Shown here: one piece after another, positions 26,104-56,712 of the stretch
How the letters are laid out: every line of letters begins with the position of its first letter
Numbering within the stretch: position 1 is the stretch's first letter
DNA from: Methanolobus sp.
GTDB lineage: Archaea > Halobacteriota > Methanosarcinia > Methanosarcinales > Methanosarcinaceae
Length of the DNA stretch: 64,000 bases
Direction of reading: 5' to 3'
NCBI RefSeq assembly: GCF_016278365.1
Contig: NZ_JADQBZ010000011.1
Coordinates: forward strand, 142,469-206,468
Translations under genes and position numbers: made by a program
Notes under the pieces: model-generated
What the model was told of the DNA's origin: nothing
Seen by the model: the letters and a program-made list of their open reading frames with translations, nothing else
The model's database searches: none

Positions 26104-26123
26104 ATTTTGATATAAACGGACCT

Positions 26124-26918: not shown

Positions 26919-26961
26919 TTAGATCACCTTGATACTTGACGATAATCATTTGGCAGTAACA

Positions 26962-28083: not shown

Positions 28084-28349
28084 AGTGAATAACCTTGTCA
28101 GCTTTGATTAGTATGAATAGTGAAATTGGTTAATATCTTTGTCGGGATAAGTGTGAAATTGTATACTTAAGTCCGGGTAATTTTTCTGAAATGAGTAGTT
28201 CCCGGTCCTATAAGAAATATAGGAAATCATGTCTTTAAATGCCTGTAATCCTGTGCACCACATAAGTAACCATATCGATAATATTCTCAACATAAAAGCC
28301 TGTTGATTTGGAGTTGAAAAGAAGATGACTTCAGCAAAGAAGCCAATTA

Positions 28350-39715: not shown

Positions 39716-40110
39716 TTATATTCAATCTATTTTTAATCACGGCCACAAGTTGTGATTTTATTCCTACTTTTTTTGTTTTGGCTTTTCAATGCATACTTTT
39801 AATCTTGTCATGCCTACTTGCCCGAAGATTTATAACAGCAGATAAGAATTATTATAAAAGTATACCCCATAATGAAAATAGCATTGACTTTATATTTATA
39901 CTTACTAGTGCAGTAAAGATACTATAGTTTAGCAGTACCGATTAGTAAGATTAAAATACATGGTAAGTATTACCTAAAATGCAAACATTTGGATCAGTTA
40001 TAGCAATTAACATGTGTTAACTAAAATATACATATTGGCACCTTAAGCTATATATAGAAATCAAATGTCAAGATTGGGTTATTGTCTTTATAAACAGTTG
40101 GTGATTCAAA
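39716..40110 (+). promoter_or_regulatory. Regulatory gap before the chelatase operon
   Basis: A 395-base AT-rich region without a gene. After S27ae there is a weak hairpin (AATCAC / GTGATT, 39735-39757) followed by TTATTCC and a T-run, a possible terminator. Two inverted repeats lie upstream of the operon: GGTAAGTATTACC (39962-39974) and TTAACATGTGTTAA (40007-40020). A TATA-like CTATATATAG at 40047-40056 would start transcription near 40078, about 33 bases before the DUF2162 ATG. The repeats are placed where a metal- or cofactor-sensing regulator could bind. Confidence 0.5.
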
Positions 40111-40785
40111 ATGGATACTATTTATGCTGCAGTTGTAGGCATTCTTATCGCCATATTCATCTTTGGGCTGAAAACAGGAGTAGGGTGTGGATTTTCGAGT
40201 ATACGGAAACGGGATGTGCTCATCCTGGCCACAGGTTACTTTGTCATATCAGTTATCCTTGGAAGTCTTGTAGGATTGGTGGATGAGTCGTATCTGGAGG
40301 GAATAGCAGGTCTTGGAATGACCCTGCACGTCCTTATTGCGCTCATCCTTATCGCGGTCGGGATATATACTCAGAAAAAATGGATCTGCGGGCATGATGT
40401 CTCAAAAAAGACATTCCTTGTTATCTCGGTACCATGCCCTGTCTGCCTGACAGCCCTTTTTGTGTCCTGCATGCTCCTTGCCTCAAGCCTTGAGATAAGC
40501 GGATGGAAGGTCGGTGTCATAGTAGGCATCGTTTTCTTCCTGTCAGTGGTATCATCCACATGGGTCTTCAAGAGTATGAGAAAAACACCTGAAGACCTTG
40601 GGACAGCTATGATGTTCCTTGGTATATTCTACCTGATGGGAGCCATGATAGTTCCTGCCTATATAAAGGCAAAACAGTTGAATATTTCAACCATCGAAGG
40701 CGGAGGCCTGGATATCGTTCCGCTGGTAGTGATATCGTTATTTATACTTGGCGGATTTGCTTTTAATTATATGAGAGGTCAATAA
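40111..40785 (+). CDS. DUF2162 polytopic membrane protein
   Basis: A 224-residue protein with about seven helices and a conserved cysteine group: C26 in KTGVGCGFSS, C93 in KWICGHDV, and C109, C112, C120 in VPCPVCLTALFVSC inside a helix. This fits DUF2162, annotated as a putative transporter. The CPVC pair in a membrane helix recalls thiol-redox carriers such as CcdA, or a metal-binding path. It is first in a four-gene set with an ExbB-like protein (2 bases downstream), DUF2149 and a CobN-like protein, which suggests a role in handling a metal or tetrapyrrole at the membrane. Confidence 0.78.
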   Translation: MDTIYAAVVGILIAIFIFGLKTGVGCGFSSIRKRDVLILATGYFVISVILGSLVGLVDESYLEGIAGLGMTLHVLIALILIAVGIYTQKKWICGHDVSKKTFLVISVPCPVCLTALFVSCMLLASSLEISGWKVGVIVGIVFFLSVVSSTWVFKSMRKTPEDLGTAMMFLGIFYLMGAMIVPAYIKAKQLNISTIEGGGLDIVPLVVISLFILGGFAFNYMRGQ

Positions 40786-40787
40786 AA

Positions 40788-41411
40788 ATGGATACAACTT
40801 CTTCATTGTTCGGTATTTTGTACACTTTTTCAGCTTCACTGCTGTACCCCGTAATAATAATCCTGCTGGGAATGGTAGTCCACTCCCTTATTCTCATCGG
40901 AGAGTTCCTTTCGGAATACGCAAGGCGTCATCGTGATGTAAAGAACCTGCAGGACTGTTGCCATGATATAAAAGAACATATGAATAAGGCTGCTTTTGGG
41001 AAAGCTGCAATTTCCCTGCGTAACATCAAACAGAACTTCATGGTAACAGGCTTTGCAAAAGCTGCTGCAGAACATCTTGAAAAGAGCACCGTTGCTTCTA
41101 TAGAATGGCTTTCCCAGGACTATGAGATAATGATGGCAAAAAGGCTTGAGCAGACAAGGATCGTCGCGACGATCGCTCCGATGCTCGGCCTGATGGGAAC
41201 ACTGATACCGTTGGGACCTGCACTAATAGGACTTTCCCAGGGCAATATCGAACAACTTGCAAACAACCTCATGATAGCATTTGCAACAACGGTTGTAGGA
41301 CTTTTCGCAGGCACCATTGCCTATGTGCTCACCCAGGTGAGGAAAAGATGGTACTGGCAGGATATGGCTGACATCGATTATATCCTGGATACGCTGGAGA
41401 TGCAGGAATGA
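40788..41411 (+). CDS. MotA/TolQ/ExbB-like proton channel subunit
   Basis: A 207-residue protein with three helices: TM1 about residues 15-42, TM2 TIAPMLGLMGTLIPLGPALI (about 128-147) and TM3 LANNLMIAFATTVVGLFAGT (157-176). The GLMGT motif (Thr 138) and the ATTVVG threonines (167-168) match the channel-lining residues of ExbB/TolQ. A cytoplasmic domain of about 85 residues sits between TM1 and TM2. Such subunits form the pentameric stator that couples proton flow to mechanical work. The stop overlaps the DUF2149 start by four bases. Confidence 0.9.
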   Translation: MDTTSSLFGILYTFSASLLYPVIIILLGMVVHSLILIGEFLSEYARRHRDVKNLQDCCHDIKEHMNKAAFGKAAISLRNIKQNFMVTGFAKAAAEHLEKSTVASIEWLSQDYEIMMAKRLEQTRIVATIAPMLGLMGTLIPLGPALIGLSQGNIEQLANNLMIAFATTVVGLFAGTIAYVLTQVRKRWYWQDMADIDYILDTLEMQE

Positions 41412-41767
41412 GAAGGCGAAGATACAGACGAACAGGGCTCATCACCAACGAGGATGAGCAAAACCCGCTCACAGGGGTTGCCAATCTCTTCGATATTGCA
41501 ATGGTATTCTCAGTTGCACTCCTGGTAGCACTGGTAATGTCCTACAACATACCGGAATTATTAACTGACGAGGACATAACCATCGTGAAGAACCCCGGAC
41601 AGAAAGACATGCAGATCATCATGAAAGAACAAGGCAAACCTATCGAGATAATGAATATGACAGACCAGATCGGAGGAGGAACCGGAGAGGCCCTTGGTAC
41701 GGCTTACAAACTTGCTGACGGAAGAGTGGTCTATGTGCCGGAGGAGGAAAACATGACTTCAACATAA
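41408..41767 (+). CDS. DUF2149 protein, ExbD-like single-pass subunit
   Basis: A 119-residue protein: basic cytoplasmic N-terminus (MRRRRYRRTG), one helix (NLFDIAMVFSVALLVALVMS, residues 26-45), and an external domain of about 70 residues. An aspartate (D29) at the start of the helix is placed like the essential proton-carrying Asp of ExbD/TolR. Overlap with the ExbB-like gene supports a stator pair. DUF2149 is not formally described as ExbD; the reading is inferred from topology, the acidic residue and context. Confidence 0.78.
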   Translation: MRRRRYRRTGLITNEDEQNPLTGVANLFDIAMVFSVALLVALVMSYNIPELLTDEDITIVKNPGQKDMQIIMKEQGKPIEIMNMTDQIGGGTGEALGTAYKLADGRVVYVPEEENMTST

Positions 41768-41800
41768 TTTTTTTTGCCTTACTGGACAAGTTAGGTTGTT

Positions 41801-41823
41801 TTAACACAACTATAATTTATAAA
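41801..41823 (+). promoter_or_regulatory. Internal promoter and possible operator of cobN
   Basis: TTTATAAA at 41816-41823 predicts a transcription start near 41845, about 80 bases before the cobN-like start. Just upstream, GTTGT / ACAAC (41796-41810) surrounds TTTAAC. The octamer TTAACACA (41801-41808) is the reverse complement of TGTGTTAA in the repeat at 40013-40020. Confidence 0.45.
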
Positions 41824-41861
41824 AATAACTTGTGAATAATAAGAATGGAAAACACGTGAAA

Positions 41862-41900
41862 GCATTTCGGTACCGCCTGCAAGCAAAGTGACCGAAATGC
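41862..41900 (+). promoter_or_regulatory. Hairpin in the cobN leader
   Basis: GCATTTCGGT / ACCGAAATGC form a perfect 10-bp stem around a 19-base loop. It ends 14 bases before the GGTGAT ribosome site (41915-41920). There is no T-run and no recognisable B12-box, so a cobalamin riboswitch is not supported, but a structured regulatory leader is plausible. Confidence 0.5.
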
Positions 41901-41923
41901 CTGGCACGCTATCGGGTGATAAC

Positions 41924-44900
41924 ATGCAAGTAAAAAGTATAGTGGTATTGTTATTAAGTTTGTTGTTGCTGGCATCGCTGGCAGCACCTGTATCGGCAGA
42001 TGAATTGAAGTTTGTTACCAATACGACAAGCAATGAGAACGGGGAGTTTATTCTAACAGATATTCCCAATGGGAATTATACACTTTCTGGAATAATATGG
42101 AGCACGGCAATGAGCGGTATGTGGCTCACAAACGCACAAGAGATAGCGGTTGAGAACGGGCAGCCTGTAGAGAATATAGTCATGGAGATGAGAAAGAATA
42201 CAAGCATTGACCATGATGCCATTCTGAGCATGCTGAACAGAACCACAATATCCGGAATCACAGTTGACAAAAACAGAGCCATTAAGCCTGAAACACAACT
42301 TATTCTTACTGATGAGAACGGGAGATTCATCCTCAATGCAACCAGCGATGAGAACGGGGAGTTCATTCTGGAAAATATCACAAACGGTGAATACACACTC
42401 TCTGGAATAATATGGAGCACAGCAATGAGTGGTATGTGGTTAACAAATGTGCAAGAGATTACTGTTAAGAACGGACAACTTGTCGAGGATATAGTCATGG
42501 AGATGAGAAAGAACACCAGCATTGACCATGTTGCCATACTAAGCATGCTGAACAGGACCACGATATCCGGAGCCACAGTTGACAAGAATGGAGTCATCAA
42601 GCCTGAAACACAGGTTCTTCTTACCGACGAGGAAGGTCATTTTGTCTTCTCTGCAACAAGCGATGCTAACGGAGAGTTCATCTTGGAAAATATCATGGAT
42701 GGTGAATACACACTCTCAGGAATAATATGGAGCACTGCGATGAACGGCATGTGGCTCACAAATGTGCAGGAGATCACAGTTGAGAATGGGCAGCCTGTTG
42801 AGAACATAGTTATGGAGATGAGAAAAAATACCGGTATTGACCATGATGCGATACTGAGCATGCTGGACAGGACCACAATATCCGGAACTACAGTTGACAA
42901 GAATGGAGCAATTAAACCGGGGACTCAACTCGTACTGATGAAGAAAGTCAAGTCCTCTGACAGTATCCCTTCAAATAATGCAACTTATCTGAAGGTAGCA
43001 ATCGTAACCGGCTACTCCTCATATGATAACGAACTTGCTGCTTCCATAGAAAGGATCAATGCCAACACAGGCCTCAATATTACATCCAGTTATTATATCA
43101 CTACCAAACTGCCGGATGACATAGACTTGAGCCAGATGGATATGATTTACATCGTGATGGTCACACAGAGTGCACCAAAGCTTCAGGAAACTATACAGCA
43201 GGCAATTGATAACGGGGCACTTGTCATAGGCTCCAACACATATCTCCCTGAAAGCACCTATGAAGTTCCTTCGGATTTTGCGGACCTGATCGTATTCAAG
43301 AAGTACCTTTCACAATACTGGTCAGGGGGAGCTGCGGATGACGAGAACTTCGATAATCTCATATTCTATCTGGCAAAGGAATACTACGATCGCACAGATC
43401 TTATAGTAAAAGAACCTACCGGCCTGGAAGGCGCAATATATCATCCTGCAATGACGGCAACTCCCATAGAGTACTTTACAGCCGATACACAGGAATATTT
43501 CAACTGGTATGCAATCAGGACTAACGGACATGCCTTTGATGAAAATGCACCGACTGTCGGGATCACGTTCTATAAGTCATACTATCCGGATGATATGGAG
43601 CCTGTCGACAAGCTCATAGAAGGGTTTGAGGCAAAAGGTGTCAATGTAATTGCCTGTTACGGAAATGCAGATCATTCTCTTGATGGATACCTGAACTACA
43701 GCAGCCAGACAAAGGTCGATGCTGTTGTTTCCTATCACTACAGAGGGAATTACTTTGATATAAAGGGCCTTGGGGTCCCTGTCATAAATGCCGTCCTCAA
43801 CGGGTACATGAACACCAGCCAATGGATAGAAACAAGCACTCCTTTGCCTGTTACAAATATGCTGAGGATTTACGGGCCTGAAGCTGAAGGGATGATAGAC
43901 CCCATTATGATAGGAGCAAAGGAAACAATTCTGGTGAACAACAGCACTGTGGAAAAGTACCTAGTCCATGAAGGACAGGCCCAGTGGCTCGTTGACCGCA
44001 CCATCGCACAGGCAAATCTTGGCATCAAGGATGAAGCTGACAAGAAGGTTGCCATCATCTACTACAACCATGGAGGCGGCAAAGATAACATCGGAGCGTC
44101 ATACCTTGAGGTTGCCCCGAGTATCGTGAATCTTCTGGAGGGAATGGCCGATGCAGGTTATGATGTGGACGGCAGCCTCATACCCAATAAGACAGAACTC
44201 GTGGACCTCATGGTTTACCAGGGGAGGAACGTAGGCACATGGGCACCGGGAGAACTTGATGCTCTTGTTAGGACAGGAAAAGTTGTGCTGCTGCCCGAAA
44301 GCACCTACCAGGTGTGGTTTAATGAACTTCCCGAGAAGAGAAGGGAAGAGGTCATAGAAATGTGGGGAGAGGCTCCGGGAGAGATAATGGTCTACACCGA
44401 TGGCAACGGCAAGCAGTTCATAGTCATCCCCACCATCAGCCTCAGCGAGAATGTAATCCTTGCTCCCCAGCCCTCACGCGGGTGGCTGGAGAACTACGAT
44501 GCATTGTACCACGATACAGAATTACCCCCGCATCACCAATATATTGCATTTTACCTATGGCTGCAGCATGAGTTCGATGCTGACGTGATGGTCAACATGG
44601 GGAGGCACGGTACCGTAGAATGGCTGCCCGGGAAGGATTTCTGCCTGCTCAGTGATGAATGGCCCGGACTTATGGTTGGCGATATACCGGTCATATATCC
44701 TTATGTAATGGATGGCATGGGTGAAGGCATGCAGGCAAAGCGCCGGGGAAATGCTGTAATTATCGACCACATGATACCTCCGGTGATATCTGCAGGCCTT
44801 TATGGGAATTACAGCCTGCTTAGCAGTGAAATTACATCATACCAGACATCCGTTACAGAAGACGAATCGCTCAGGCAGGCACATTTACAGAAGATAGTCA

Positions 44901-47113
44901 ACCTTACACTTGAACTGGGGCTTGACAGTCATGTTGACATGAGCCTTGCCCAGGATGAAGCAACTGTTGGTCTGTTCCTGGAAGAGCTTACTGATGTACT
45001 CTATGAGCTCAGGAGCCTGTCCATGCCATACGGCCTGCACATACTCGGAGAGGCGCCGGAAGGAGAGGCACTTGTCGGGATGGTCAACTCCATGCTGGGC
45101 AGCGGATTTGCAGAAAAGGTGGCCGTGTATAATGAATCAGATTCGGCATACTACGACCTGCTCTCAAAGGTGCTCCTGGAGGGAGAGAGTGTTACTGACG
45201 CACAGGTGCAGGTACTGGACACTACTTCCACAGATATCGAAGCCTACCTGAACACTGCGATCAATTACACAGAACTGCTCTCAGAAACTGAAAATGAGAT
45301 CCAGCAGGTCCTGAAAGCCATGAACGGCGAGTTCATCAGGCCAAACCTGGGCGGCGACCCTGTGCTCCGCTCCGAGACACTTCCTTCGGGCAGCAACTTC
45401 TACGCTTTTGACGAACAGCTCATTCCCACAAAGCAGGCGTGGCTGGAAGGAAAGGCACTTGTTGACCAATGGCTTGCAGAATATTATGCTGAGCACGGCG
45501 AGTATCCTACAAAAGTGGGATATATACTCTGGGCAGGAGAATCCACACGCCACCAGGGTATAATGGAGTCACAGATTCTTTATCTACTCGGTGTGGAGCC
45601 GGTCTGGAACGACAATAACGGCAAGGTAGAGGATGTCAAGATTATAGATTCCGCCGATCTTGGAAGACCTCGTATTGATGTAATCGTACAGATATCCGGC
45701 CTGTACCGGGACACTTTCCCGATGAAGGTGCAACTGATAGACAAGGCTGTAAGGCTTGCCTATGAGAATCGAGAGACCGATGTATATGATAACTATGTGG
45801 CCTTGAACACAGATACATTACAGGAGGTTCTGAACGAGACTATACAGGACGAGAACCTCTCATTGAATGTCTCACTGTTCAGGATATTCGGCCCTGCCGA
45901 CGGGAACTATGGAACCGGCATGGCAAATGCAGTATCTGCCAGCGACACATGGGAAGATAACGATGCATTGGCACAACTGTATATCAACAGGATGAGCTAT
46001 GTCTACGGCCAGAACATCTGGGGACAGAGCATATCCGAGTACATCAGGCAACAGACAGGCCTGACGATCGATATAGATAATAAGGTTGTCTTTGAGAATA
46101 ACCTGAACGGGACACAGGCCATATTCCATAGCAGAAGTTCCAACACATATGGTTCACTCGATACAGATGATTTCTACCAGTATCTGGGAGGACTCTACAA
46201 TGCTATTGAATATCTATCTGGCACCGCACCAGATGCTTATGTCGTGAACCTGCAGAATATGGGAGACCTGAAAGTGGAAACACTCCAAACCTATCTTGCA
46301 AACGAAATTTATGCAAGGTACTTCAACCCCACATGGATTAACGGAATGCAGCAGCATGGGTTTGAGGGTGCCAGACAAATGGAAGAATTCCTTGAGAATC
46401 TCTGGGGTTGGGAAGCCCTTAACCCGGATCTCATCAGTGATGATGTATGGAACAGAGTGTATGAGAACTACTTTGCCAATGGCGAGCTCAGCGACTGGCT
46501 GAAGGAGAACAATCCCCATGCTTATCAGGCCATGGTAGCTCGGATGACCGAAACTGCCAGGAAGGGAAACTGGAACGCTTCAGATGAAGTTTTAAAAAGC
46601 CTTGTGGCCGAGCAAGTTAGGGCAGTCATTGATAGTGGCGCCACATGTTGCCACCATACTTGTGGCAATTTACTTAACCAGGCATTTGTAGACGGAATTG
46701 CACAGGCGCTTGTTGAAACCGGACAAATTAGCCAAAATGAACTTGACATGTACAAGAAGATCATGCAGGAAGCTACGACTGAAACGACACCTACGACTAC
46801 AACAGAGAGACCATCCAGCTCATCTTCCAGCTCAAGCAGTATCGGAAAAGAGCTCAACATAGTAGAAACTGGCTCAGGCAACCAGACTTCCATGAGTGAA
46901 GCAGGAGCAGGTACTGATTTTGATAAGGATGTATCGATGAAGTCTCCTGTAAAGGACAACTACGTTGAAGGCTACGAGATGACAAGGGAAAGTGTCGCAC
47001 AGCCGGATAACAGCGGCCCCTCATTCTCAGGCTCTGACATAATAGCTTCAGTGCTTGTGCTTGCCGGAGTCGGGGCAGTGTATGTGGGATTCTGGAAGAG
47101 GAGGAAAATGTAA
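41924..47113 (+). CDS. Secreted, membrane-anchored CobN-like metallochelatase with N-terminal repeats
   Basis: About 1,729 residues from the ATG at 41924, which gives a clean signal peptide (MQVKSIVVLLLSLLLLASLA, cleavage after VSA); the upstream ATG at 41888 would bury it. Residues about 36-350 are three near-identical 105-residue repeats with a carboxypeptidase-regulatory-like strand pattern (NGEFILENI, GEYTLSG). The CobN/Mg-chelatase H core follows, with GRHGTVEWLPGKDFCLLSDE (near 892), VIYPYVMDGMGEGMQAKRR and IDHMIPP. A TCCHHTCG cluster lies near 1575, then a Thr/Ser-rich linker and a C-terminal helix (SDIIASVLVLAGVGAVYVGF) with basic RRKM. Cytoplasmic cobalamin CobN has no signal peptide or anchor. 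Context with ExbB-, DUF2149- and DUF2162-type genes resembles HmuS in bacteria. Confidence 0.88.
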   Translation: MQVKSIVVLLLSLLLLASLAAPVSADELKFVTNTTSNENGEFILTDIPNGNYTLSGIIWSTAMSGMWLTNAQEIAVENGQPVENIVMEMRKNTSIDHDAILSMLNRTTISGITVDKNRAIKPETQLILTDENGRFILNATSDENGEFILENITNGEYTLSGIIWSTAMSGMWLTNVQEITVKNGQLVEDIVMEMRKNTSIDHVAILSMLNRTTISGATVDKNGVIKPETQVLLTDEEGHFVFSATSDANGEFILENIMDGEYTLSGIIWSTAMNGMWLTNVQEITVENGQPVENIVMEMRKNTGIDHDAILSMLDRTTISGTTVDKNGAIKPGTQLVLMKKVKSSDSIPSNNATYLKVAIVTGYSSYDNELAASIERINANTGLNITSSYYITTKLPDDIDLSQMDMIYIVMVTQSAPKLQETIQQAIDNGALVIGSNTYLPESTYEVPSDFADLIVFKKYLSQYWSGGAADDENFDNLIFYLAKEYYDRTDLIVKEPTGLEGAIYHPAMTATPIEYFTADTQEYFNWYAIRTNGHAFDENAPTVGITFYKSYYPDDMEPVDKLIEGFEAKGVNVIACYGNADHSLDGYLNYSSQTKVDAVVSYHYRGNYFDIKGLGVPVINAVLNGYMNTSQWIETSTPLPVTNMLRIYGPEAEGMIDPIMIGAKETILVNNSTVEKYLVHEGQAQWLVDRTIAQANLGIKDEADKKVAIIYYNHGGGKDNIGASYLEVAPSIVNLLEGMADAGYDVDGSLIPNKTELVDLMVYQGRNVGTWAPGELDALVRTGKVVLLPESTYQVWFNELPEKRREEVIEMWGEAPGEIMVYTDGNGKQFIVIPTISLSENVILAPQPSRGWLENYDALYHDTELPPHHQYIAFYLWLQHEFDADVMVNMGRHGTVEWLPGKDFCLLSDEWPGLMVGDIPVIYPYVMDGMGEGMQAKRRGNAVIIDHMIPPVISAGLYGNYSLLSSEITSYQTSVTEDESLRQAHLQKIVNLTLELGLDSHVDMSLAQDEATVGLFLEELTDVLYELRSLSMPYGLHILGEAPEGEALVGMVNSMLGSGFAEKVAVYNESDSAYYDLLSKVLLEGESVTDAQVQVLDTTSTDIEAYLNTAINYTELLSETENEIQQVLKAMNGEFIRPNLGGDPVLRSETLPSGSNFYAFDEQLIPTKQAWLEGKALVDQWLAEYYAEHGEYPTKVGYILWAGESTRHQGIMESQILYLLGVEPVWNDNNGKVEDVKIIDSADLGRPRIDVIVQISGLYRDTFPMKVQLIDKAVRLAYENRETDVYDNYVALNTDTLQEVLNETIQDENLSLNVSLFRIFGPADGNYGTGMANAVSASDTWEDNDALAQLYINRMSYVYGQNIWGQSISEYIRQQTGLTIDIDNKVVFENNLNGTQAIFHSRSSNTYGSLDTDDFYQYLGGLYNAIEYLSGTAPDAYVVNLQNMGDLKVETLQTYLANEIYARYFNPTWINGMQQHGFEGARQMEEFLENLWGWEALNPDLISDDVWNRVYENYFANGELSDWLKENNPHAYQAMVARMTETARKGNWNASDEVLKSLVAEQVRAVIDSGATCCHHTCGNLLNQAFVDGIAQALVETGQISQNELDMYKKIMQEATTETTPTTTTERPSSSSSSSSSIGKELNIVETGSGNQTSMSEAGAGTDFDKDVSMKSPVKDNYVEGYEMTRESVAQPDNSGPSFSGSDIIASVLVLAGVGAVYVGFWKRRKM
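42030..42945 (+). repeat. Three tandem 315-bp repeats in the cobN-like gene
   Basis: The segment AATAATATGGAGCAC recurs at 42091, 42406 and 42721, exactly 315 bases apart, and flanking sequence is nearly identical in each copy. The period is a whole number of codons (105 residues), so the protein repeats stay in frame. The third copy runs into the chelatase domain with slight divergence. Confidence 0.92.
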
Positions 47114-47125
47114 AATACACAAAGG

Positions 47126-47160
47126 AAACATGTCAGCAGAGCCTGACATGTTCTTATTTT
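47126..47160 (+). terminator. Hairpin terminator of the cobN-like gene
   Basis: A perfect 10-bp stem AACATGTCAG / CTGACATGTT (47126-47135 and 47142-47151) with a 6-base loop, followed by CTTATTTTC, starting 12 bases after the stop codon. The rest of the 303-base gap to 47417 holds no gene; a TATA-like TTTATATAC near 47338-47346 could serve the following protease. Confidence 0.75.
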
Positions 47161-47416: not shown

Positions 47417-50400
47417 ATGCACAAAAATGTACTATTCCTGTGGAGCCTAATAGTGCTCCTACTCATCATTCCAATCGCCGGGGGCGATGAAAATGACACA
47501 TCTGAAAACGATAATGCAAACATGATTCTTCTCAAAGCAGGCCCGATACATACAGATATTGTTTCTGTTGCCGGTGAGAAGGAAATTGAGGAGGCTCCTG
47601 CTGCATCCATTGCTTCTTACTCTGTTGACACGACAGAGACTGACGATAACCTTGGAAGTTACTATATTGTGCAGTTTGATGGACCAGTGCTTGAAGAATG
47701 GAAGAACGAACTTGCCGTGACCGGGGCTGCCCTGTTCTATTACGTCCCAAATAATGCTTTTGTCGTGAGAATGGATCCTGCACAGAAAGAACAGGTCGAT
47801 TCCCTTGATTTTGTGAAATGGACAGGGGAATACAGGGCACCATACAAACACCAGGTCAATACAGGAAAGGTCGCAACCTTGTCAATGTCCCCATCATCCT
47901 ATGATGCTGCAGACCTTATTGTACTTCTTTTTGACGAGAGCGAAAGCCGGAATATACTGGAAAAGATCATTTCCATGGATGCGGACATTGTGGAAAGTTC
48001 CCCTCGCATCCTGAGGGTAAGAATCACAAGGGACAGGATCAACGATCTTGCAGCCATCGAAGGCATCTGCTGGATCGAAGAATATGCAGTACCGGTCGTT
48101 TTCAATGACGTTGCCGCCGGTATAATCAACGTGAACCATGTCCACGAGAATTACAGGCTGAACGGTACAGGGCAAATAGTTGCAGTGTGCGATACGGGAC
48201 TGGATACAGGCGTCGATGATGAGTTCATTCATGAAGACATCAGGGGAAGGATTCGGGGCATTTTCGACCTTGTCGGCGATGGGGCTGGTGACCAGCATGG
48301 ACATGGCACACATGTGACAGGGTCTGTGCTCGGGAATGGGGCAAACTCTGGTGGACAGTATAAAGGTATGGCTCATGAGGCATTGCTTGTGTTCCAGGCT
48401 GCAGGTACAGCCGGGGGAGAGCTAACGGGCATCCCGGCGGACCTGAATTTACTTTTCCAGCAGGCATACAATCAAGGCGCAAGAATCCATACTAATAGTT
48501 GGGGTTACACCCATGACAGCGGGAACTATAGTCTTAACTCGTGGCAGGTTGACACATTCATGTGGAATAATCCTGACATGCTTATTCTTTTCGCAGCAGG
48601 CAACTATGGAGAGGATATCGATAAGAATGGTATAGTGGATTCCAATTCCATCACCCCTCCTGGAACATCAAAGAACTGTATTACCGTGGGTTCTTCGGAG
48701 AACAATAGATCTTCATTAAGCTCAACAACTTGGGGGAGCAATTATGGCTTTCCCATAAATAATGACATCAGGGCCAACAATATTGAAGGAATGGCTGCCT
48801 TCAGTAGCCGAGGACCAACAGACGATGTCAGGATAAAACCAGATATTGTTGCTCCTGGCACATATATAGCATCTACGAAATCCAGTCTCGCTACTGCCCT
48901 ATATAGCATGCCTGGTTATCCTGAATATGCATATTCGAGCGGTACCAGCATGGCCACTCCACTCGTTGCGGGAGCAGCAGCACTTGCGAGGCAGTATTAT
49001 ACCGAAATAGAAGATTTGCCAAGCCCGAGTGCCGCACTTATCAAAGCCACCCTGATCAACGGTGCCCATGATATGACCCCCGGACAATACGGGACAGGAA
49101 ATTACCAGGAGATTGTGGGCAGGCCTGATCATTCACAGGGCTGGGGCCGTGTTGACGTTGAGAATTCACTTTTCCCTGAGTATCCCAAGGTAACCGCATA
49201 CCATGACATGAGTGAAGGCCTGGTTACTTCACAAGCGTGGAGCGCAGACTACGGTTATATCAAAGATGGAGAGCCACTCAGAGCAACACTTGTGTGGACC
49301 GACTATCCGGGTTCTCCCGCTTCCGGGAAGGCACTTGTTAACGACCTTGACCTCACGGTGACAGGCTCTGGGAACACATACTACGGAAACGGGGCATCTG
49401 AATCGATCAATAACATCGAAGCAGTAGAGATAGAAAGTACTTCATCCGGCAGTTATCAATTTACAGTGACCGGGGAAAACATACCACAGGGACCACAACC
49501 CTTTGCACTGGTCCTTTCTTTCACCTGTGATAATAACTTGTTCCCGGCACATGACTCCTATACATCGGAAAGTATGGCCATAATAGCAACTGATGTTGTG
49601 CATCCGGGAGGAGTGAACTTAAGCTCTATAAACATGAAGATTAATGGTGCATCTGTATCTTACACGAATTCGGCCATAAATGACGGATACAGAATACAGC
49701 ATGATACTTCCGCCCCATACCAAAGCGGGGAATATAATGTGTCGGTGACGGCCTTTACAGCAAAAGGACAGCCGTTCTCATATAGATGGAAATTCAATGT
49801 GAACGCTGCACCTGTGACAGTGACAGGCATAACAGTAAAAGCAGCTCCTACAAAGATCACTTACATTGAAGGTGAGGAACTAAATGTTCAAGGCCTGATT
49901 ATAACTCTGCTCAAATCAGATTCAAGCACAGAAGATGTAATTTTTACTAACTTCAGCTCAAAAGGAATAACGGTGAATCCTGCAAACGGGACTGTCCTTG
50001 CAACAACCAACACATTGGTTACCATCACCCATACTGAAAGTGGGAAAAGCACTACACAGGCAATCACTGTGAATGCTTTACCTGTAACAGTGACAGAAAT
50101 AAAGGTGGAAACCGCTCCTACAAAAGTCACTTACACTGAAGGTGAGAAACTAGATGTTCAAGGCATGGTTATAACTCTGCTCAAATCAGATTCAAGCACA
50201 GAAGAGGTAGCGTTTGCAAATTTCAGCTCAAAAGGAATAACTGTTAATCCTGCAAACGGAACTGTCCTTGCAACAACCAGCACACTGATTAATATCTCCC
50301 ATACTGAAAGTGGGAAAAGCACAACACAGGCAATCACCGTTAATGCTGTAACAGTAACAGGAGTTTCGGTCAAGTCCACACCTGCAAAAGTGATATACAC

Positions 50401-52417
50401 TGAAGGAGATAATCTCAATTTGCAGGGTATGGTAATAACTCTTACCAGGTCAAATTCGGCTACAGAAGATGTAATTTTTACGGACTTCAGCTCAAAAGGA
50501 ATTATTGTAATTCCTGTAAATGGAACTGTCCTTGCAACAACCAACACACTGGTTACTATCACCCATACTGAAAGCGGGAAAAGCACGACACAGCTAATCA
50601 CTGTTAATACTGCACCAATAAAGGTTACATCGATCACCATAAACGGAGCAGGGAATGCTATGGCAGTAGAGAAGGGGAAAACACTGCAGATGTATGCAAC
50701 AGTGTCTCCTGCAAATGCAGCCAATAAGGACATCTCATGGTCAGTGATAAATGGAGCAGGAACGGCCACAATCAGTCAAACTGGACTGTTAACAGCAACA
50801 GGAGTTGGGACAGTAACTGTCAGAGCGACAGCTACTGATGGTTCGGGCATACTAGGCACTCTCAATGTTATGGTTACTGAAGTACCAGTGGTAGTAACTA
50901 ATATTTCAGTAAAGACAGCGCCCACTAAGCTAACCTACACAGAAGATGAAACTCTCAATCTACAGGGTTTGGTAATAACCCTCACCAAATCAAATTCAAG
51001 CACAGAAGAGGTAGCATTTGCAAACTTCAGTTCGAAAGGAATTGTTGTGACTCCTGCAAACGGAACTGTTCTTGCAACAATCAATAAATTGGTCACCATC
51101 ACCCATACTGAAAGTGGGAAAAGCACAACACAGGTAATTACTGTAAATGCTGTACCTGTAACAGTGACAGGAATAGTAGTAAAAACAGCTCCTACAAAAG
51201 TCACTTACACTGAAGGTGAAACTCTCAATTTACAGGGCATGGTAATAACCCTGCTAAAATCAAACTCAAGCACAGAAGATGTAGCGTTTGCAAACTTCAA
51301 TTCGAAGGGAATTGTTGTGGCTCCTGCAAGTGGAACTGTTCTCACAACATCCAATACAACGGTTACTATCACCCATAGTGAAAGCGAGAAAAATACAACA
51401 CAGGTGATCACTGTGAACGCTGTACCTGTAACAGTGACAGGCATAACAGTAAAAGCAGCTCCCACAAAATTAGTCTACACTGAAGGTGAAGCTCTCAATC
51501 TGCATGACATAATAATAACTCTTACCAGGTCAAATTCGGTTACAGAAGATGTAATTTTTACGGACTTCAGCTCAAAAGGAATTGTTGTGACTCCTGCAAA
51601 CGGAACTGTTCTTGCAACAACCAACACAATGGTAGCCATCGCCCATACTGAAAGCGGGAAAAGCACGACACAGGCAATCACCGTTAATGCTGTACAGTCC
51701 CCACCCCCAGCGACAAGTGGTGGTGGAGGCGGTGGGGGAGGTGGTTCCACCGGAGAAAAGACAGAGAATATATTATTGAAAGACGTAAGTTCAGTCTTTG
51801 TTGGCAAGGATGCAGTCAGGTTTGACTTCAAAAACCCTGGCAGCGACATACAGTATATAGAATATACCTCCCTGAAGAACTCGGGAACCATAACTGCAAC
51901 CATAGAGATGTTAAAGGATCGCTCTATCTTTGCCGTTTCGTCACCTGAGGGAACCGTGTACAGGCACGTAAATATATGGCTGGGGAAAAGCGGATATGCC
52001 ACCGAGGCAAACATTATTGATCCAGGGATTGTATTCAGAGTTGATAATAGTTGGATAAGCAGTAATAACATAGATCCGGCCTCTATTATTCTTAACAGGT
52101 ACAGTGACGGTACGTGGAGCAAACTGCCCACTGAACAGACAGGTTCGGACGCAGATTTCCTATACTTCAGGGCAGCAACGCCGGGATTTTCTCCATTTGC
52201 GATCACAGGTGAAAGCTTCGAAAATGAATCAATACTACATAGCACATCTGAGGCGCTGTTCTCAACAGACTCTCCAGAGAACAGAGTAGGTGCCTTGGAT
52301 GATTCCAGTGACCCAAAAGCAAATGGAGCTCAAGCCGAGAAAACATTGCCCGCTATTTCTGTTACTGTCACATTGATAATAGTTATCTTTGCCTGCTTCC
52401 TCCTTAGGAAGCAGTAA
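47417..52417 (+). CDS. Large secreted subtilase (S8) with Ig-like repeats and PGF-pre-PGF domain
   Basis: A 1,666-residue exported serine protease. The signal peptide is MHKNVLFLWSLIVLLLIIPI. A propeptide region (about 75-240) contains YYIVQFDGPVLEEWKNEL. The catalytic triad is D259 (AVCDTGLDTG), H299 (HGHGTHVTG) and S511 (SGTSMATPLVAG). A P-domain-like beta region follows to about residue 790. Six about-90-residue Ig-like repeats occupy roughly 799-1426, split three and three by one Big_2-type domain. A GGGGGGGGG linker leads to a PGF-pre-PGF domain (ATPGFSPFAITG) and a C-terminal helix (SVTVTLIIVIFACFLL). It should sit on the cell surface and digest proteins or process surface layers. A paralogue follows. 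Confidence 0.92.
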   Translation: MHKNVLFLWSLIVLLLIIPIAGGDENDTSENDNANMILLKAGPIHTDIVSVAGEKEIEEAPAASIASYSVDTTETDDNLGSYYIVQFDGPVLEEWKNELAVTGAALFYYVPNNAFVVRMDPAQKEQVDSLDFVKWTGEYRAPYKHQVNTGKVATLSMSPSSYDAADLIVLLFDESESRNILEKIISMDADIVESSPRILRVRITRDRINDLAAIEGICWIEEYAVPVVFNDVAAGIINVNHVHENYRLNGTGQIVAVCDTGLDTGVDDEFIHEDIRGRIRGIFDLVGDGAGDQHGHGTHVTGSVLGNGANSGGQYKGMAHEALLVFQAAGTAGGELTGIPADLNLLFQQAYNQGARIHTNSWGYTHDSGNYSLNSWQVDTFMWNNPDMLILFAAGNYGEDIDKNGIVDSNSITPPGTSKNCITVGSSENNRSSLSSTTWGSNYGFPINNDIRANNIEGMAAFSSRGPTDDVRIKPDIVAPGTYIASTKSSLATALYSMPGYPEYAYSSGTSMATPLVAGAAALARQYYTEIEDLPSPSAALIKATLINGAHDMTPGQYGTGNYQEIVGRPDHSQGWGRVDVENSLFPEYPKVTAYHDMSEGLVTSQAWSADYGYIKDGEPLRATLVWTDYPGSPASGKALVNDLDLTVTGSGNTYYGNGASESINNIEAVEIESTSSGSYQFTVTGENIPQGPQPFALVLSFTCDNNLFPAHDSYTSESMAIIATDVVHPGGVNLSSINMKINGASVSYTNSAINDGYRIQHDTSAPYQSGEYNVSVTAFTAKGQPFSYRWKFNVNAAPVTVTGITVKAAPTKITYIEGEELNVQGLIITLLKSDSSTEDVIFTNFSSKGITVNPANGTVLATTNTLVTITHTESGKSTTQAITVNALPVTVTEIKVETAPTKVTYTEGEKLDVQGMVITLLKSDSSTEEVAFANFSSKGITVNPANGTVLATTSTLINISHTESGKSTTQAITVNAVTVTGVSVKSTPAKVIYTEGDNLNLQGMVITLTRSNSATEDVIFTDFSSKGIIVIPVNGTVLATTNTLVTITHTESGKSTTQLITVNTAPIKVTSITINGAGNAMAVEKGKTLQMYATVSPANAANKDISWSVINGAGTATISQTGLLTATGVGTVTVRATATDGSGILGTLNVMVTEVPVVVTNISVKTAPTKLTYTEDETLNLQGLVITLTKSNSSTEEVAFANFSSKGIVVTPANGTVLATINKLVTITHTESGKSTTQVITVNAVPVTVTGIVVKTAPTKVTYTEGETLNLQGMVITLLKSNSSTEDVAFANFNSKGIVVAPASGTVLTTSNTTVTITHSESEKNTTQVITVNAVPVTVTGITVKAAPTKLVYTEGEALNLHDIIITLTRSNSVTEDVIFTDFSSKGIVVTPANGTVLATTNTMVAIAHTESGKSTTQAITVNAVQSPPPATSGGGGGGGGGSTGEKTENILLKDVSSVFVGKDAVRFDFKNPGSDIQYIEYTSLKNSGTITATIEMLKDRSIFAVSSPEGTVYRHVNIWLGKSGYATEANIIDPGIVFRVDNSWISSNNIDPASIILNRYSDGTWSKLPTEQTGSDADFLYFRAATPGFSPFAITGESFENESILHSTSEALFSTDSPENRVGALDDSSDPKANGAQAEKTLPAISVTVTLIIVIFACFLLRKQ
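49811..51694 (+). repeat. Six Ig-like repeats of about 270 bp inside the first subtilase
   Basis: Units begin near 49811, 50081, 50345, 50885, 51155 and 51425. Units 1, 4, 5 and 6 are about 270 bases, and unit 2 is 264. The start motif is VTVTGI-x-VKxAPTK and the end is TITHTESGKSTTQAITVNA. A different domain of about 270 bases (50612-50884; ISWSVINGAGTATISQTGLL) interrupts the series. Units are similar at DNA level, indicating recent duplication or recombination. Confidence 0.88.
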
Positions 52418-52494
52418 CTCTTTTTTTAACTTTTTCTCGCAGGTTCACTGCAGGACAGTATTACTTAGTTTGCAATATTAAGCAGCACAAATAA

Positions 52495-52514
52495 ATATAC
52501 TATTAATAGTATAT
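52495..52514 (+). promoter_or_regulatory. 20-bp perfect palindrome upstream of the second subtilase
   Basis: ATATACTATTAATAGTATAT reads the same on both strands. It lies immediately upstream of a TATA-like TTTAATATAC (52518-52527), which is about 26 bases from the ATG at 52549, so the mRNA may be leaderless. The palindrome is in the position of an operator or the BRE. Confidence 0.5.
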
Positions 52515-52548
52515 CTATTTTTAATATACAGTTCGTGGATGTAGGCTT

Positions 52549-55500
52549 ATGCGCGCTAAAAACAAGATCCTCATTACGTTTATTCTGATAATTCTCACAA
52601 CTTCTCTGTGTGCTGCAGGAAGTGTATCTAATGCAGATTTTAATGATGAAGGCCTCCTCCTCTTAAAAGCCGGGTATGTGGATACAGACATCACAAAGGA
52701 GCCCGGAATACAAAATGATGAGCATGAGCCTATGGCTTTCACCACCCAATCCATGGATAATGAGGAAAAATACTACATTGTGCAGTTCATCGGTCCCATA
52801 CAGGGAACATGGAAGCAGGAGATAATATCTCAAGGAGCTTCTATCTACAATTATGTTCCAAACAACGCATTTGTCTTCAGGATGAATGAGACTGTAAAGG
52901 TGCAGTTATATTCACTCGATTTCGTAAAATGGATCGGCGAGTACAAGCCTTCGTACAAATATATGCCTGAATTGGTAAATGATGAGATTCCTCAACTATC
53001 TTCTTCACCAGATGAAAACAGGACCACCTATTTCGTATTGCTTTTTTCCCCGGTAGACAGTGAAAAAGTAATTAATGAAATTATTTCACTGGACGGGAAG
53101 GTCCTTTCAAGCTCAGGAGATATCCTGAAAGTACAAATACTATCATCCACACTACCCGATATTGCGACAATAGATGAGGTCAGCTGGATAGAAGAATATA
53201 TTCAGCCCTTTGTTTTCAACGATATGGCTGCTGCCATTATAACCGTAAACCCTATCCTTAACACATATGGCCTGAAAGGAGAGGAGCAGATAATAGCCGT
53301 ATGTGACACAGGGCTTGACACAGGAAACAAAGACACAATACATACGGATCTGAGAGGTAGAGTATTAAGTCTTGTAGATACAAAAGGGGATGGAAGCGCT
53401 GCCGATCAGAATGGTCATGGAACTCATGTTGCAGGATCCGTACTGGGGAACGGGGCAAACTCTGGCGGTCAGTATAGCGGAATGGCACCTGAGGCAGAGC
53501 TGGTATTCCAAGCGGTGGGAGATGCCAGCAATTCTTTGGACCTTTCAGCTGGCCTGGAAGAAATATTCCAGGCAGCATACAACCTTGATGCAAAAATCCA
53601 TACAAACAGCTGGGGAACTTCTTCATATGGGGCATATACAACATATTCGCAACAAGTAGATCAGTTCATGTGGGATAATCCTGACATGCTGATCCTTTTC
53701 GCGGCTGGCAACAGTGGTGCAGATGGAAGTGGTACAATCAATGCTCCCGGAACGGCAAAAAATGCATTGACTATTGGAGCTTCGGAGAATAATAGGTCTT
53801 CCCTTGGCATTTATGCAGACAATATCAACGAAATCGCTTTTTTCAGCAGTCGTGGCCCTACGGCTGATGGCAGGATCAAGCCTGATTTGGTAGCTCCTGG
53901 GACTTATATAAATTCAACAAAATCAAGCTTGACCAGCGGCAGCGGGTATTATACATACATGAGCGGGACAAGCATGGCGACACCTATTGTCGCCGGAACT
54001 GCTGCGCTTGTCAGGCAATACTACATGGATATTGAAGGCCTGTCAAACCCGAGTGCTGCACTTATCAAAGCTACATTGATAAACGGCGCCTACGACATAA
54101 CATCCGGACAAGACAGGCCGAACTATTCACAGGGCTGGGGGCGAATTGACCTTGAAAGCTCCATATATCCCCGGTATCCGCAAGCCATAAGTTATTTTGA
54201 CAATGTAAAGGCATTGGACACCACCGAATCCTGGAGTGTAAGCTATAACATTCCCCACACGTCAGAGCCTCTAAGGGTTACACTTGTCTGGACAGATTAC
54301 CCGGGTGGGGGCGCATATACTAAAGGACTTGTGAACAACCTTGACCTCGTTGTAGTCGGACCAGAGGGCACATACTATGGGAACGATGCTCATGACATCA
54401 CTAACAACGTTGAAGGTGTAGAACTGGCAAATCCTGCTGTCGGGATATATACAATAATAGTAAGCGGTACAAATGTTCCCGAGGGTCCGCAAAACTTCTC
54501 TCTTGTAGTTTCCTATGAGAATAACGATGTTTTCCCTATGCATAATTCATACACAACCAACGCCACAACTGAGGTTTACATTAACCTGACACATCCTTCA
54601 GGAATCGATGGAAACTCTGTGAGCATGACTATAGATAATTTCCCAGTCCTCTATTCCCTGGAAAACATAGAGGAAGGATATAGAATCAGAAATCTTACTT
54701 CTCAGCCTTATTCAGAGGGATACCACAATGTATCAGTCAGTGCAGTGACGAACCTGAGTCAACAACTGGACCACAGCTGGAGATTCTATGTCAGTGCAGA
54801 AGAGAATGTGATAGTGATTCAAGGACTTGAAGAAAATGCTGTGATACAAGAAGAAACTTTCGAGATGAATATAAGCAACCGGAAAATGTGTAATTTCTGG
54901 TACAATATAGATAACGGAATCAATTACACAGAAGAAAACACATTTTCATTCAACACTATCCTTAACCTCACCGAAGGTCACCATAACATCACAGTCTTTG
55001 CTGAAGATATCACTGGAAACACAAGCTCAGTCATTCTCAATTTTACCGTTTTCACAAACCCCCCGGTTATCACTTCACCTGCATCTGGAACGATATACTA
55101 CCTACCCGATAACAGCTTTAATGTAAGCGGTACTGCAGGAATAGCTACCAATGCCTCAGTTTATGTAAATGATATACTCACAAACGGTTCTCACTCCACC
55201 CAGAACGGAACATTCAGTATCAATAGCATACCACTCTTGAATGGCACAAACACCGTGAATGTTACTTCCATCTTAAACTATTCTGAGCAGGAATACTTCA
55301 GTCCCAACACCACAATATACCTTAGCGTGGGAAAGATTTTCGACACTGGAATTAGTGATGAGGCAACGCTTCCGATTCCCGGAATTGTAAGTGTCCCCTG
55401 CCCAACCATCAACTTCAACATAACCGGCACATCCGCCAATCCGGGAAGCCTGGCCGGTGCTATCGTCAGAGGACAGGACCCGGGAAGCGGAACCTATCTA

Positions 55501-56712
55501 ACGGGCCCTGCTGTTGATATCAAAGCGATGAATGGCTCTGAGCTTGTTAATTCATACAATTTTGGAAGGAATGTTTCCTTGAGCCTTGGATATGATCCGG
55601 TTCTCGTGGATAATGCAGGCAAACTTACTATTGCATGGTATGACCCTGTTGAAGATACCTGGGTGCCTTTTAGGAGTACGGTAAACAGTTCCGCACATAC
55701 TCTCAATACAAATATCACACACCTGAGCATATATGCTCCCCTTGAGGACACCATTTCCCCAGTTATCAGCGGACTCTCAAGTTCAAGGACTACGACGTCA
55801 ATCATCCTTACATGGCAGAGCTCACCTGATACAGGCTATGTAGAGATCAGAAGGAATGGTGTTCTTATCACAAATAGCTCCGGCTCAACCTTGACCGACA
55901 GCGGACTGTCTGAGGGCGTCACTTACACCTACAGCCTCAGAGGAACCGACTTTGTTGGGAATATCGGGGAATGGTCCAATATCAGTGTAACAACAGCCCA
56001 GACCGCTTCAACTGGCTCAGGAGGCGGCGGCGGTGGAGGAGGCTCCAGCGGAGAGAGTGCAGAGAACATCCTCTTTAAGGATGTGCTTACAGTCAATACA
56101 ATGACAGACGCGGCCATTACATTTGATTTCGACAACGAGATGAATGATATATATTATGTAAAGTACCTGTCACTGAAGAATTCGGGCAAGATCAGCACTA
56201 CTATTGAAGTGTTGAAGAACACATCCGGTTTTGCAAAGAGCGCGGCTCCAGATGTCACTTACAGGAATATCAACATCTGGGTCGGCAAGACCGGATACGC
56301 CACGGAGAGCAATATAATGGATCCTGCCATAGGATTCCGCGTCAGCCAGGCCTGGGTTCTCGACAATGCCATTGACCCATATACTGTAAGGCTCAACAGG
56401 TACTCCGGCGAGTCCTGGGAAGAACTTGCCACGGAACAGACAGGCTCCGATGACAACTATTTCTATTTCGAGGCAAAAACTCCCGGCTTCTCACCTTTTG
56501 CCATTACAGGTAAACATCTCTCACTTGCCAAACAGGGAGGAGATCCAGAAGCCTTTCTGCTTGAACAGGAAGGCAACACAATATCTTTAACACAGGATGA
56601 TGGGAATGGCAAAGGAAATACTGGAAAGGACCCACTTCCGGAAGCACTCATAGGAATCTTATGTGTGACACTCACAGCCTTTTATTTCTTCAGAAGAAGA
56701 CAGCAAAATTAA
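52549..56712 (+). CDS. Second secreted subtilase (S8) with Ig-like, FN3-like and PGF-pre-PGF domains
   Basis: A 1,387-residue paralogue of the preceding protease. It has a signal peptide (KILITFILIILTTSLCAAGS), a propeptide with YYIVQFIGPIQGTWKQEI, and the triad D253 (AVCDTGLDTG), H293 (GHGTHVAG) and S475 (SGTSMATPIVAG). A beta domain follows, then Ig-like modules (VITSPASGTIYYLPDNSFNV), a fibronectin III-like module (LSSSRTTTSIILTWQSSPDT), a Gly-rich linker and a PGF-pre-PGF domain (TPGFSPFAITG), ending in ALIGILCVTLTAFYFFRRR. It lacks the six repeats of its neighbour, so the two share the catalytic and anchoring ends but differ in the stalk. Confidence 0.92.
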   Translation: MRAKNKILITFILIILTTSLCAAGSVSNADFNDEGLLLLKAGYVDTDITKEPGIQNDEHEPMAFTTQSMDNEEKYYIVQFIGPIQGTWKQEIISQGASIYNYVPNNAFVFRMNETVKVQLYSLDFVKWIGEYKPSYKYMPELVNDEIPQLSSSPDENRTTYFVLLFSPVDSEKVINEIISLDGKVLSSSGDILKVQILSSTLPDIATIDEVSWIEEYIQPFVFNDMAAAIITVNPILNTYGLKGEEQIIAVCDTGLDTGNKDTIHTDLRGRVLSLVDTKGDGSAADQNGHGTHVAGSVLGNGANSGGQYSGMAPEAELVFQAVGDASNSLDLSAGLEEIFQAAYNLDAKIHTNSWGTSSYGAYTTYSQQVDQFMWDNPDMLILFAAGNSGADGSGTINAPGTAKNALTIGASENNRSSLGIYADNINEIAFFSSRGPTADGRIKPDLVAPGTYINSTKSSLTSGSGYYTYMSGTSMATPIVAGTAALVRQYYMDIEGLSNPSAALIKATLINGAYDITSGQDRPNYSQGWGRIDLESSIYPRYPQAISYFDNVKALDTTESWSVSYNIPHTSEPLRVTLVWTDYPGGGAYTKGLVNNLDLVVVGPEGTYYGNDAHDITNNVEGVELANPAVGIYTIIVSGTNVPEGPQNFSLVVSYENNDVFPMHNSYTTNATTEVYINLTHPSGIDGNSVSMTIDNFPVLYSLENIEEGYRIRNLTSQPYSEGYHNVSVSAVTNLSQQLDHSWRFYVSAEENVIVIQGLEENAVIQEETFEMNISNRKMCNFWYNIDNGINYTEENTFSFNTILNLTEGHHNITVFAEDITGNTSSVILNFTVFTNPPVITSPASGTIYYLPDNSFNVSGTAGIATNASVYVNDILTNGSHSTQNGTFSINSIPLLNGTNTVNVTSILNYSEQEYFSPNTTIYLSVGKIFDTGISDEATLPIPGIVSVPCPTINFNITGTSANPGSLAGAIVRGQDPGSGTYLTGPAVDIKAMNGSELVNSYNFGRNVSLSLGYDPVLVDNAGKLTIAWYDPVEDTWVPFRSTVNSSAHTLNTNITHLSIYAPLEDTISPVISGLSSSRTTTSIILTWQSSPDTGYVEIRRNGVLITNSSGSTLTDSGLSEGVTYTYSLRGTDFVGNIGEWSNISVTTAQTASTGSGGGGGGGGSSGESAENILFKDVLTVNTMTDAAITFDFDNEMNDIYYVKYLSLKNSGKISTTIEVLKNTSGFAKSAAPDVTYRNINIWVGKTGYATESNIMDPAIGFRVSQAWVLDNAIDPYTVRLNRYSGESWEELATEQTGSDDNYFYFEAKTPGFSPFAITGKHLSLAKQGGDPEAFLLEQEGNTISLTQDDGNGKGNTGKDPLPEALIGILCVTLTAFYFFRRRQQN

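Follow-up and report, generated by a model that had tools for sequence, protein, structure and literature searches.

The window analysed here, a 64,000-nucleotide stretch of contig NZ_JADQBZ010000011.1 of the archaeon Methanolobus sp., carries an operon of four co-oriented, tightly spaced open reading frames at positions 40111-47113, encoding in order DUF2162, ExbB, DUF2149 and CobN (parts of the operon and its flanking signals lie on the plus strand unless stated otherwise). The operon opens with a DUF2162 membrane protein of 224 residues (40111..40785; PF09930, E = 2.3e-66), followed by a 207-residue stator protein of the ExbB/TolQ/MotA family, the counterpart of bacterial HmuU (40788..41411; PF01618, MotA_ExbB, E = 8.2e-13), by a 119-residue DUF2149 protein, the counterpart of HmuV in an ExbD-like position (41408..41767; PF09919, E = 5.4e-34), and by a secreted, membrane-anchored CobN-like class I chelatase (41924..47113) of 1,729 residues counted from the ATG at 41924, with a GTG at 41888 as an alternative start. 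A first-pass annotation, made from the letters of the window alone, had named these four genes, and Pfam and NCBIfam searches confirmed every reading frame and family. Because the same genes occur in the same order in many genera, the set is not a chance assembly.

The Pfam family CobN-Mg_chel (PF02514, 1077 bits) covers its full domain length in the last protein (43313..46591; positions 2-1089 of 1090), and the NCBIfam model NF004645, 'cobaltochelatase subunit CobN', matches residues 141-1739 with 2594 bits. The chelatase domain is preceded by a signal peptide (MQVKSIVVLLLSLLLLASLAAPVSA, 41924..41998; hydrophobicity 2.57) and by three tandem 315-bp repeats (42019..42909) of carboxypeptidase-regulatory-like beta domains, which probably form a stalk; it is followed by a C-terminal membrane helix (47039..47095) and a KRRKM tail. 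A hydrophobic segment was present at the N-terminus of 95 and at the C-terminus of 83 of 104 archaeal homologues, counts that include some reading frames cut by contig ends, and neither segment occurs in three cytosolic CobNs or in BchH. The archaeal homologues have a median of 19 N-glycosylation sequons per 1000 residues, versus 0-4 in cytosolic references. On these sequence features, CobN is exported and held by its C-terminal helix, with the chelatase domain on the repeat stalk outside the membrane, so that the outward orientation first proposed from the signal peptide and anchor gains the sequon density as a further support.

The solved relatives of the chelatase domain are HmuS (9d26, the best match), CobN (7c6o) and ChlH (4zhj). 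HmuS is defined by the motifs HFG(T/A)HG and LSLDHxxEFMGG, whose His-538 and His-1209 point towards the metal (PMC12583661), and its Bacteroidales homologues keep both motifs. The window CobN lacks this signature and has NMGRHGTVEWLPGK (NMGRHG) and DTDDFYQYLGG (46160..46192) instead, the latter being the CobN-type counterpart of LSLDHxxEFMGG; its GRHGTVEW motif (44600..44623) corresponds to the CobN-type EWLPGK. Most archaeal copies read HGTQEWLPGK or HGTHEWLPG together with DNDD-x-x-QY, and the cytosolic CobNs of Tsukamurella, Azotobacter and Halobaculum carry EWLPGK and D-x-x-D motifs. A DH motif like that of HmuS is present in one archaeal clade. In a Methanoculleus-type clade (six loci) the HG motif is lost (FSIFSNICLMPGKE), and these proteins may therefore bind without catalysis. 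In the tree, the three cytosolic CobNs group together (support 1.0), the archaeal operon CobNs join HmuS and the Azospirillum and Pseudoalteromonas copies (0.996), and the Trichlorobacter and Runella copies are neighbours (0.86). The last value falls to 0.47 once an odd archaeal copy, L063, is included, which shows that the deep branching is only moderately supported.

The window protein thus shares with the CobNST and ChlIDH class I chelatases the chelatase domain and the motifs HG-EWLPGK and DxDD-Q, but unlike their large subunits it is secreted and anchored, and its genome does not appear to supply their ATPases. It is encoded by the sole PF02514 gene of the host genome (2.87 Mb, 99.9% complete), in which no full-length ATPase of the ChlI/ChlD or CobS type was found, only partial and weak Mg_chelatase matches. 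The same genome holds two CbiM-type importer genes and one NikR.

The two genes in the middle of the operon would encode a membrane stator. Thr138 and Thr168 of ExbB are invariant in 80 of 80 homologues, and Asp29 of DUF2149 (codon 41492..41494), at the start of the membrane helix, in 84 of 84. DUF2149 is predicted to consist of one membrane helix (20-47 in the model) and a small outer domain, in a model with a predicted local distance difference test (pLDDT) score of 59. From this invariance and from the families, we infer that ExbB and DUF2149 form a stator pair in which the conserved aspartate would carry protons. The pair resembles the ExbB-ExbD-TonB, TolQ-TolR and MotA-MotB stators in its ExbB family member with the conserved threonine and in a one-helix partner opened by an invariant aspartate; it differs in that DUF2149 is not significantly similar to ExbD, so that the likeness is one of layout only, and in that no TonB or peptidoglycan-binding partner is seen in the operon. 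DUF2162, modelled as a helical protein (pLDDT 81), carries a CPVC motif (40435..40446) whose cysteines are conserved in 61 of 61 (C109) and 60 of 61 (C112) homologues, and the conserved residues across the 61 sequences (CPxC, K21, C26, H73, D96 and M167) fit a probable metal permease. A sequence-profile match of DUF2162 to viral VP1 was taken as noise. A search of the open-access literature, with subscription papers outside its reach, found no paper for the term DUF2162; DUF2149 has been linked to TolQ in methanogens (PMC9425974).

To determine how widely the four genes travel together, we surveyed the phylum, in which DUF2149 is present in 93 of 295 genomes. Around 84 DUF2149 genes, ExbB adjoins in 81 and all four genes are found together in 49, the prevailing order being DUF2162-ExbB-DUF2149-CobN; since the loci were sampled by DUF2149 and some contigs are cut, these linkage counts are conditional frequencies. 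The order is conserved across archaeal genomes rather than scattered. A scan of named contigs added Methanosarcina, Methanococcoides, Methanohalophilus, Methanothrix, Methanoculleus and the anaerobic methanotrophic archaea (ANME) ANME-1, ANME-2 and ANME-3 to the archaeal carriers, and Prevotellaceae, Planctomycetota and Hydrogenedentota to the bacterial ones; no relatives of DUF2149 were found on viral contigs. In Azospirillum, CobN-ExbB-DUF2149 lies upstream of the binding protein and permease of an ATP-binding cassette transporter. Tandem CobN copies are common among the archaeal loci.

The linker before the C-terminal helix of CobN contains a conserved element. In the tail alignment of the CobNs linked to ExbB and DUF2149, a short box lies 10-20 residues before the helix, within an otherwise variable region; in the window it reads YVEGYEM (46961..46981). 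The window CobN combines the features that define the group, namely the anchor, the membrane-proximal box and the linkage to ExbB-DUF2149. The box is YVEGYEM in Methanosarcinaceae, GKVM or SGHVM in other archaea, VEGFEM in Trichlorobacter, VKGYKM in Runella and GMVLKK in HmuS. Its pattern occurs in 80 of 84 archaeal CobN tails, where shuffling of the tails gives 8.4 (at most 19 across 300 shuffles), a count that is only descriptive because the pattern was drawn from these very sequences; in HmuS tails it occurs in 10 of 14, with 1.1 expected. All 30 of the V(E/Q)GYEM-encoding loci read in 40 related genomes were CobN tails. The box is found in up to four copies within about 20 kb (for example G135:C1:310301-330709), and this clustering indicates that tandem CobN paralogues have expanded in some Methanolobus, the window genome having one.

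Where ExbB-DUF2149 pairs occur without CobN, they can stand beside giant surface proteins with CARDB, PQQ or beta-helix domains, which carry RVNGYPM, EVEGKRM, VFGYPF, VSGFPF or GTGHPF at the same position (eight archaeal loci). As these proteins are unrelated to CobN, they offer a fairer comparison than the CobN tails. The pattern was widened to admit these variants after they had been seen, so this comparison, too, needs an independent test. Taken with the CobN tails, the box marks a candidate site at which the motor may dock. In five loci of congeners an S-layer gene (PF07752) immediately precedes the ExbB-DUF2149 pair. The S-layer proteins encoded there have no such box, and the S-layer protein beside some motors was rejected as a box carrier.

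The bacterial systems nearest to the operon are the hmu genes for haem use. Of 198 Bacteroidales genomes, 17 have a DUF2149 that scores above the family cut-off. The loci that were read belong to hmu-type operons, with an HmuY-type lipoprotein followed by a TonB receptor, CobN/HmuS, HmuT (a membrane protein of some 230 residues), ExbB and DUF2149. An annotated Bacteroides finegoldii plasmid assigns the hmu genes in the same way, and from this gene content HmuU is ExbB and HmuV is DUF2149. A Methanomicrobia cluster has been reported among HmuV matches (PMC10100974). The archaeal operon therefore shares with hmuYRSTUV of Bacteroidota a CobN-family ectodomain, ExbB and DUF2149 in one operon, as well as anchoring at both ends (13 of 14 HmuS) and a similar membrane-proximal box. 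It differs in having DUF2162 for HmuT, in lacking HmuY and HmuR, in its CobN-type active site and in the absence of an outer membrane from the host. HmuT has no Pfam match, and DUF2162, which occupies its place in the archaeal operon, is above cut-off in none of the 198 Bacteroidales genomes. The homology to hmuSTUV proposed in the first-pass annotation accordingly stands for S, U and V, but does not extend to T or to the HmuS signature. In four Prevotellaceae loci, ExbB reaches about 350 residues through an HmuT-like extension at its N-terminus and is probably a fusion protein.

The same annotation had presented the set as archaeal. It also occurs outside the archaea, since plasmid pGLOV01 of Trichlorobacter lovleyi carries the identical DUF2162-ExbB-DUF2149-CobN order and families, with the box VEGFEM, in a Gram-negative host. 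Unlike the archaeal operon, this copy is flanked by TonB receptors, TonB and a second ExbB/ExbD, and it adjoins the corrinoid gene bzaF. A 2025 paper describes HmuS as a haem de-chelatase, the role of its archaeal CobN homologues as unclear, and archaea as lacking complete hmu operons (PMC12583661); two 'BtuS' proteins of M. barkeri are said to lack the operon (PMC10846266).

The genes around the relatives of the operon point to several metals. In ANME-1 loci, CbiM, CbiN, CbiQ and CbiO are linked to the four-gene set (TIGR00123 is above cut-off in three of these loci), and on several ANME-1 contigs CbiT, CbiL, CbiF, CbiG and CbiH/CbiC, or cobyric acid synthase, follow. Relatives in Prevotellaceae adjoin CbiK, CbiA-type and CobQ-type genes. 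On a Runella plasmid, ExbB-DUF2149-CobN lies between hypF and hypCDE together with a TonB receptor and a weakly NicO-like permease, and a ChaN haem-binding gene lies inside the Hydrogenedentota locus. In Pseudomonas aeruginosa the TonB receptor PA1922 shares a Zur-controlled operon with the cobN-like PA1923 (PMC8531726). The nickel context in Runella, the haem contexts in Bacteroides and Hydrogenedentota and the corrinoid contexts in ANME-1, Trichlorobacter and Prevotellaceae suggest that the core is an engine for scavenging metals in general, to which different permeases can be fitted. The first-pass annotation had guessed at cobalt, nickel or haem; the ANME-1 and Trichlorobacter contexts narrow this to cobalt first, which is the most likely metal of the DUF2162 branch. 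By analogy with HmuS, the likeliest chemistry is release of a metal from an external complex.

We propose that the operon encodes a proton-driven machine at the cell surface that scavenges metal, cobalt first, and we put the probability of the whole mechanism at about one half. CobN, as its sequence shows, is exported and anchored by its C-terminal helix, presenting the class I chelatase domain outside on the repeat stalk; ExbB and DUF2149 would form the membrane stator, with protons carried by the aspartate of DUF2149. The motor would grip the VxGxxM box or the anchor helix of CobN and drive its opening and closing, a task that in cytosolic chelatases falls to the CobS/CobT or ChlI/ChlD ATPases of the cytoplasm. 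The chelatase would then remove cobalt, or possibly nickel, from corrinoids or other strong complexes outside the cell, and Co2+ would pass to the CPxC protein DUF2162, which has the place of bacterial HmuT, and to CbiMNQO-type importers for corrinoid synthesis. Counted in favour are the conserved order and linkage, the outward topology, the invariant stator residues, the single CobN without a full-length ChlI/ChlD-type ATPase, the two CbiM-type importers and NikR, the cobalt contexts in ANME-1, Trichlorobacter and Prevotellaceae, the CobN-type motifs, and the presence of the box in CobNs and in unrelated surface proteins. The earlier suggestion that the motor may act directly on the surface CobN is supported and, in the box, acquires a concrete candidate handle.

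Several observations weigh against this proposal. Profile comparison with ExbD and a PDB search gave no significant match for DUF2149, whose model is poor, and the model of DUF2162 matches no solved fold (best Foldseek E 0.32). Partner proteins of the S-layer and PGF-CTERM types are without the box. In Methanosarcinaceae themselves the operon is not adjacent to cobalt genes, and among relatives HmuS is linked to haem iron (PMC12583661) and the Runella copy, through its neighbours, to nickel. Some Methanomicrobiales homologues that lack HG keep the operon, so chelatase chemistry may not be what unites the group. In M. barkeri, levels of CobN-like proteins are higher with FeS2 or cysteine than with Fe(II)/HS- (PMC10846266).

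The last observation, that these proteins vary with the source of iron and sulfur, would suit an archaeal haem-iron system in which the surface CobN removes haem iron in the manner of HmuS and FeoB takes up the Fe2+. The HmuU and HmuV families common to both systems, the top PDB match to HmuS and the ChaN gene in Hydrogenedentota point the same way. However, LSLDHxxEFMGG with its His-1209 is replaced by DTDDFYQYLGG, HmuY, HmuR and HmuT are missing, and cobalt genes rather than iron genes are seen beside archaeal copies; we consider a haem-iron role distinctly unlikely. A nickel system, serving F430 and hydrogenase, also seems unlikely to us. It could draw on the Runella copy inside the hydrogenase-maturation cluster with its NicO-like permease, and on the rise of CobN1 and NikR1 under nickel limitation in M. 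marburgensis (PMC12350162), although this CobN1 may be of another type than the ExbB-linked one. Where archaeal copies have informative neighbours, these are CbiMNQO and corrin genes. An inverted repeat, TGTTTGC-N16-GCAAACA, is conserved some 141-143 bp upstream in about a dozen Methanolobus loci, and its spacing is like that of the E. coli NikR operator. The window strain does not have this repeat, and the further sites inspected lie at no nickel gene or other metal gene, so that the identity of the metal is not derivable from it.

Two other explanations concern the nature of CobN itself. The automatic annotation as NF004645 would make it the ordinary late cobaltochelatase of B12 synthesis, with the ExbB pair as an unrelated neighbour, but we rejected this reading as extremely improbable: the protein has a signal peptide and an anchor, a full-length partner ATPase was not found in the genome, distant phyla have the same linkage and a common box, and the tree places it apart from the three cytosolic CobNs. 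Alternatively, the motor might move the surface protein and so help a cargo across the S-layer or envelope, with CobN acting as a binding receptor and not as an enzyme. The CobN-less ExbB-DUF2149 pairs beside box-bearing giant CARDB/PQQ/beta-helix proteins, Peripla_BP_2 proteins and S-layer proteins would be accommodated by this reading, as would the CobN clade without the HG motif; we find it unlikely, given that most archaeal CobNs, including that of the window, retain the active-site motifs.

The scavenging mechanism may be one case of something broader. In cells that have no outer membrane, ExbB-DUF2149 might supply energy to outward-facing proteins in general, docking on a short VxGxxM-type box close to the outer face of the membrane and exerting direct proton-driven force on CobN chelatases and on giant CARDB/propeller proteins, with no TonB or outer-membrane receptor, and HmuS might be driven likewise. 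We hold this generalisation tentatively, somewhat short of even odds.

The surroundings of the operon contain further elements. Terminator-like hairpins, from a consensus scan only, flank the operon, one separating it from the ribosomal-protein gene upstream (39735..39757) and one after CobN (47127..47152). A TATA-box-like CTATATATAG (40048..40057) stands about 55 bp 5' of the first gene, and an inverted repeat, TTAACATGTGTTAA (40007..40020, strand not assigned), is common to two close congeners and is a possible operator. An Rfam search near the operon returned no cobalamin riboswitch or other RNA, and one weak match, IS009, was far below cut-off. In six Methanosarcina-type loci the operon is immediately preceded, on the other strand, by the gene of an ArsR-type helix-turn-helix protein, a candidate regulator. 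By eye, from translations only, genes at 24601-29759, about 10 kb upstream, resemble the F430 synthesis cluster cfbBCDE; those at 47417-56712, after the operon, likewise judged by eye, encode, side by side, two giant surface proteins that resemble subtilases and have repeats and C-terminal anchors.

If the proposal is correct, archaea, described as lacking complete hmu operons (PMC12583661), have its energised core in a cobalt-linked variant, and proteins annotated only as CobN, DUF2149 and DUF2162, widespread in cobalt-needing methanogens and ANME archaea, would gain a testable function. Should the broader role of the motor also hold, HmuU and HmuV would act on HmuS itself and not, as in published models, on the receptor HmuR. 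Whether an ExbB-type motor works directly on a cell-surface enzyme becomes a question that can be put to the test through a mutable seven-residue box.

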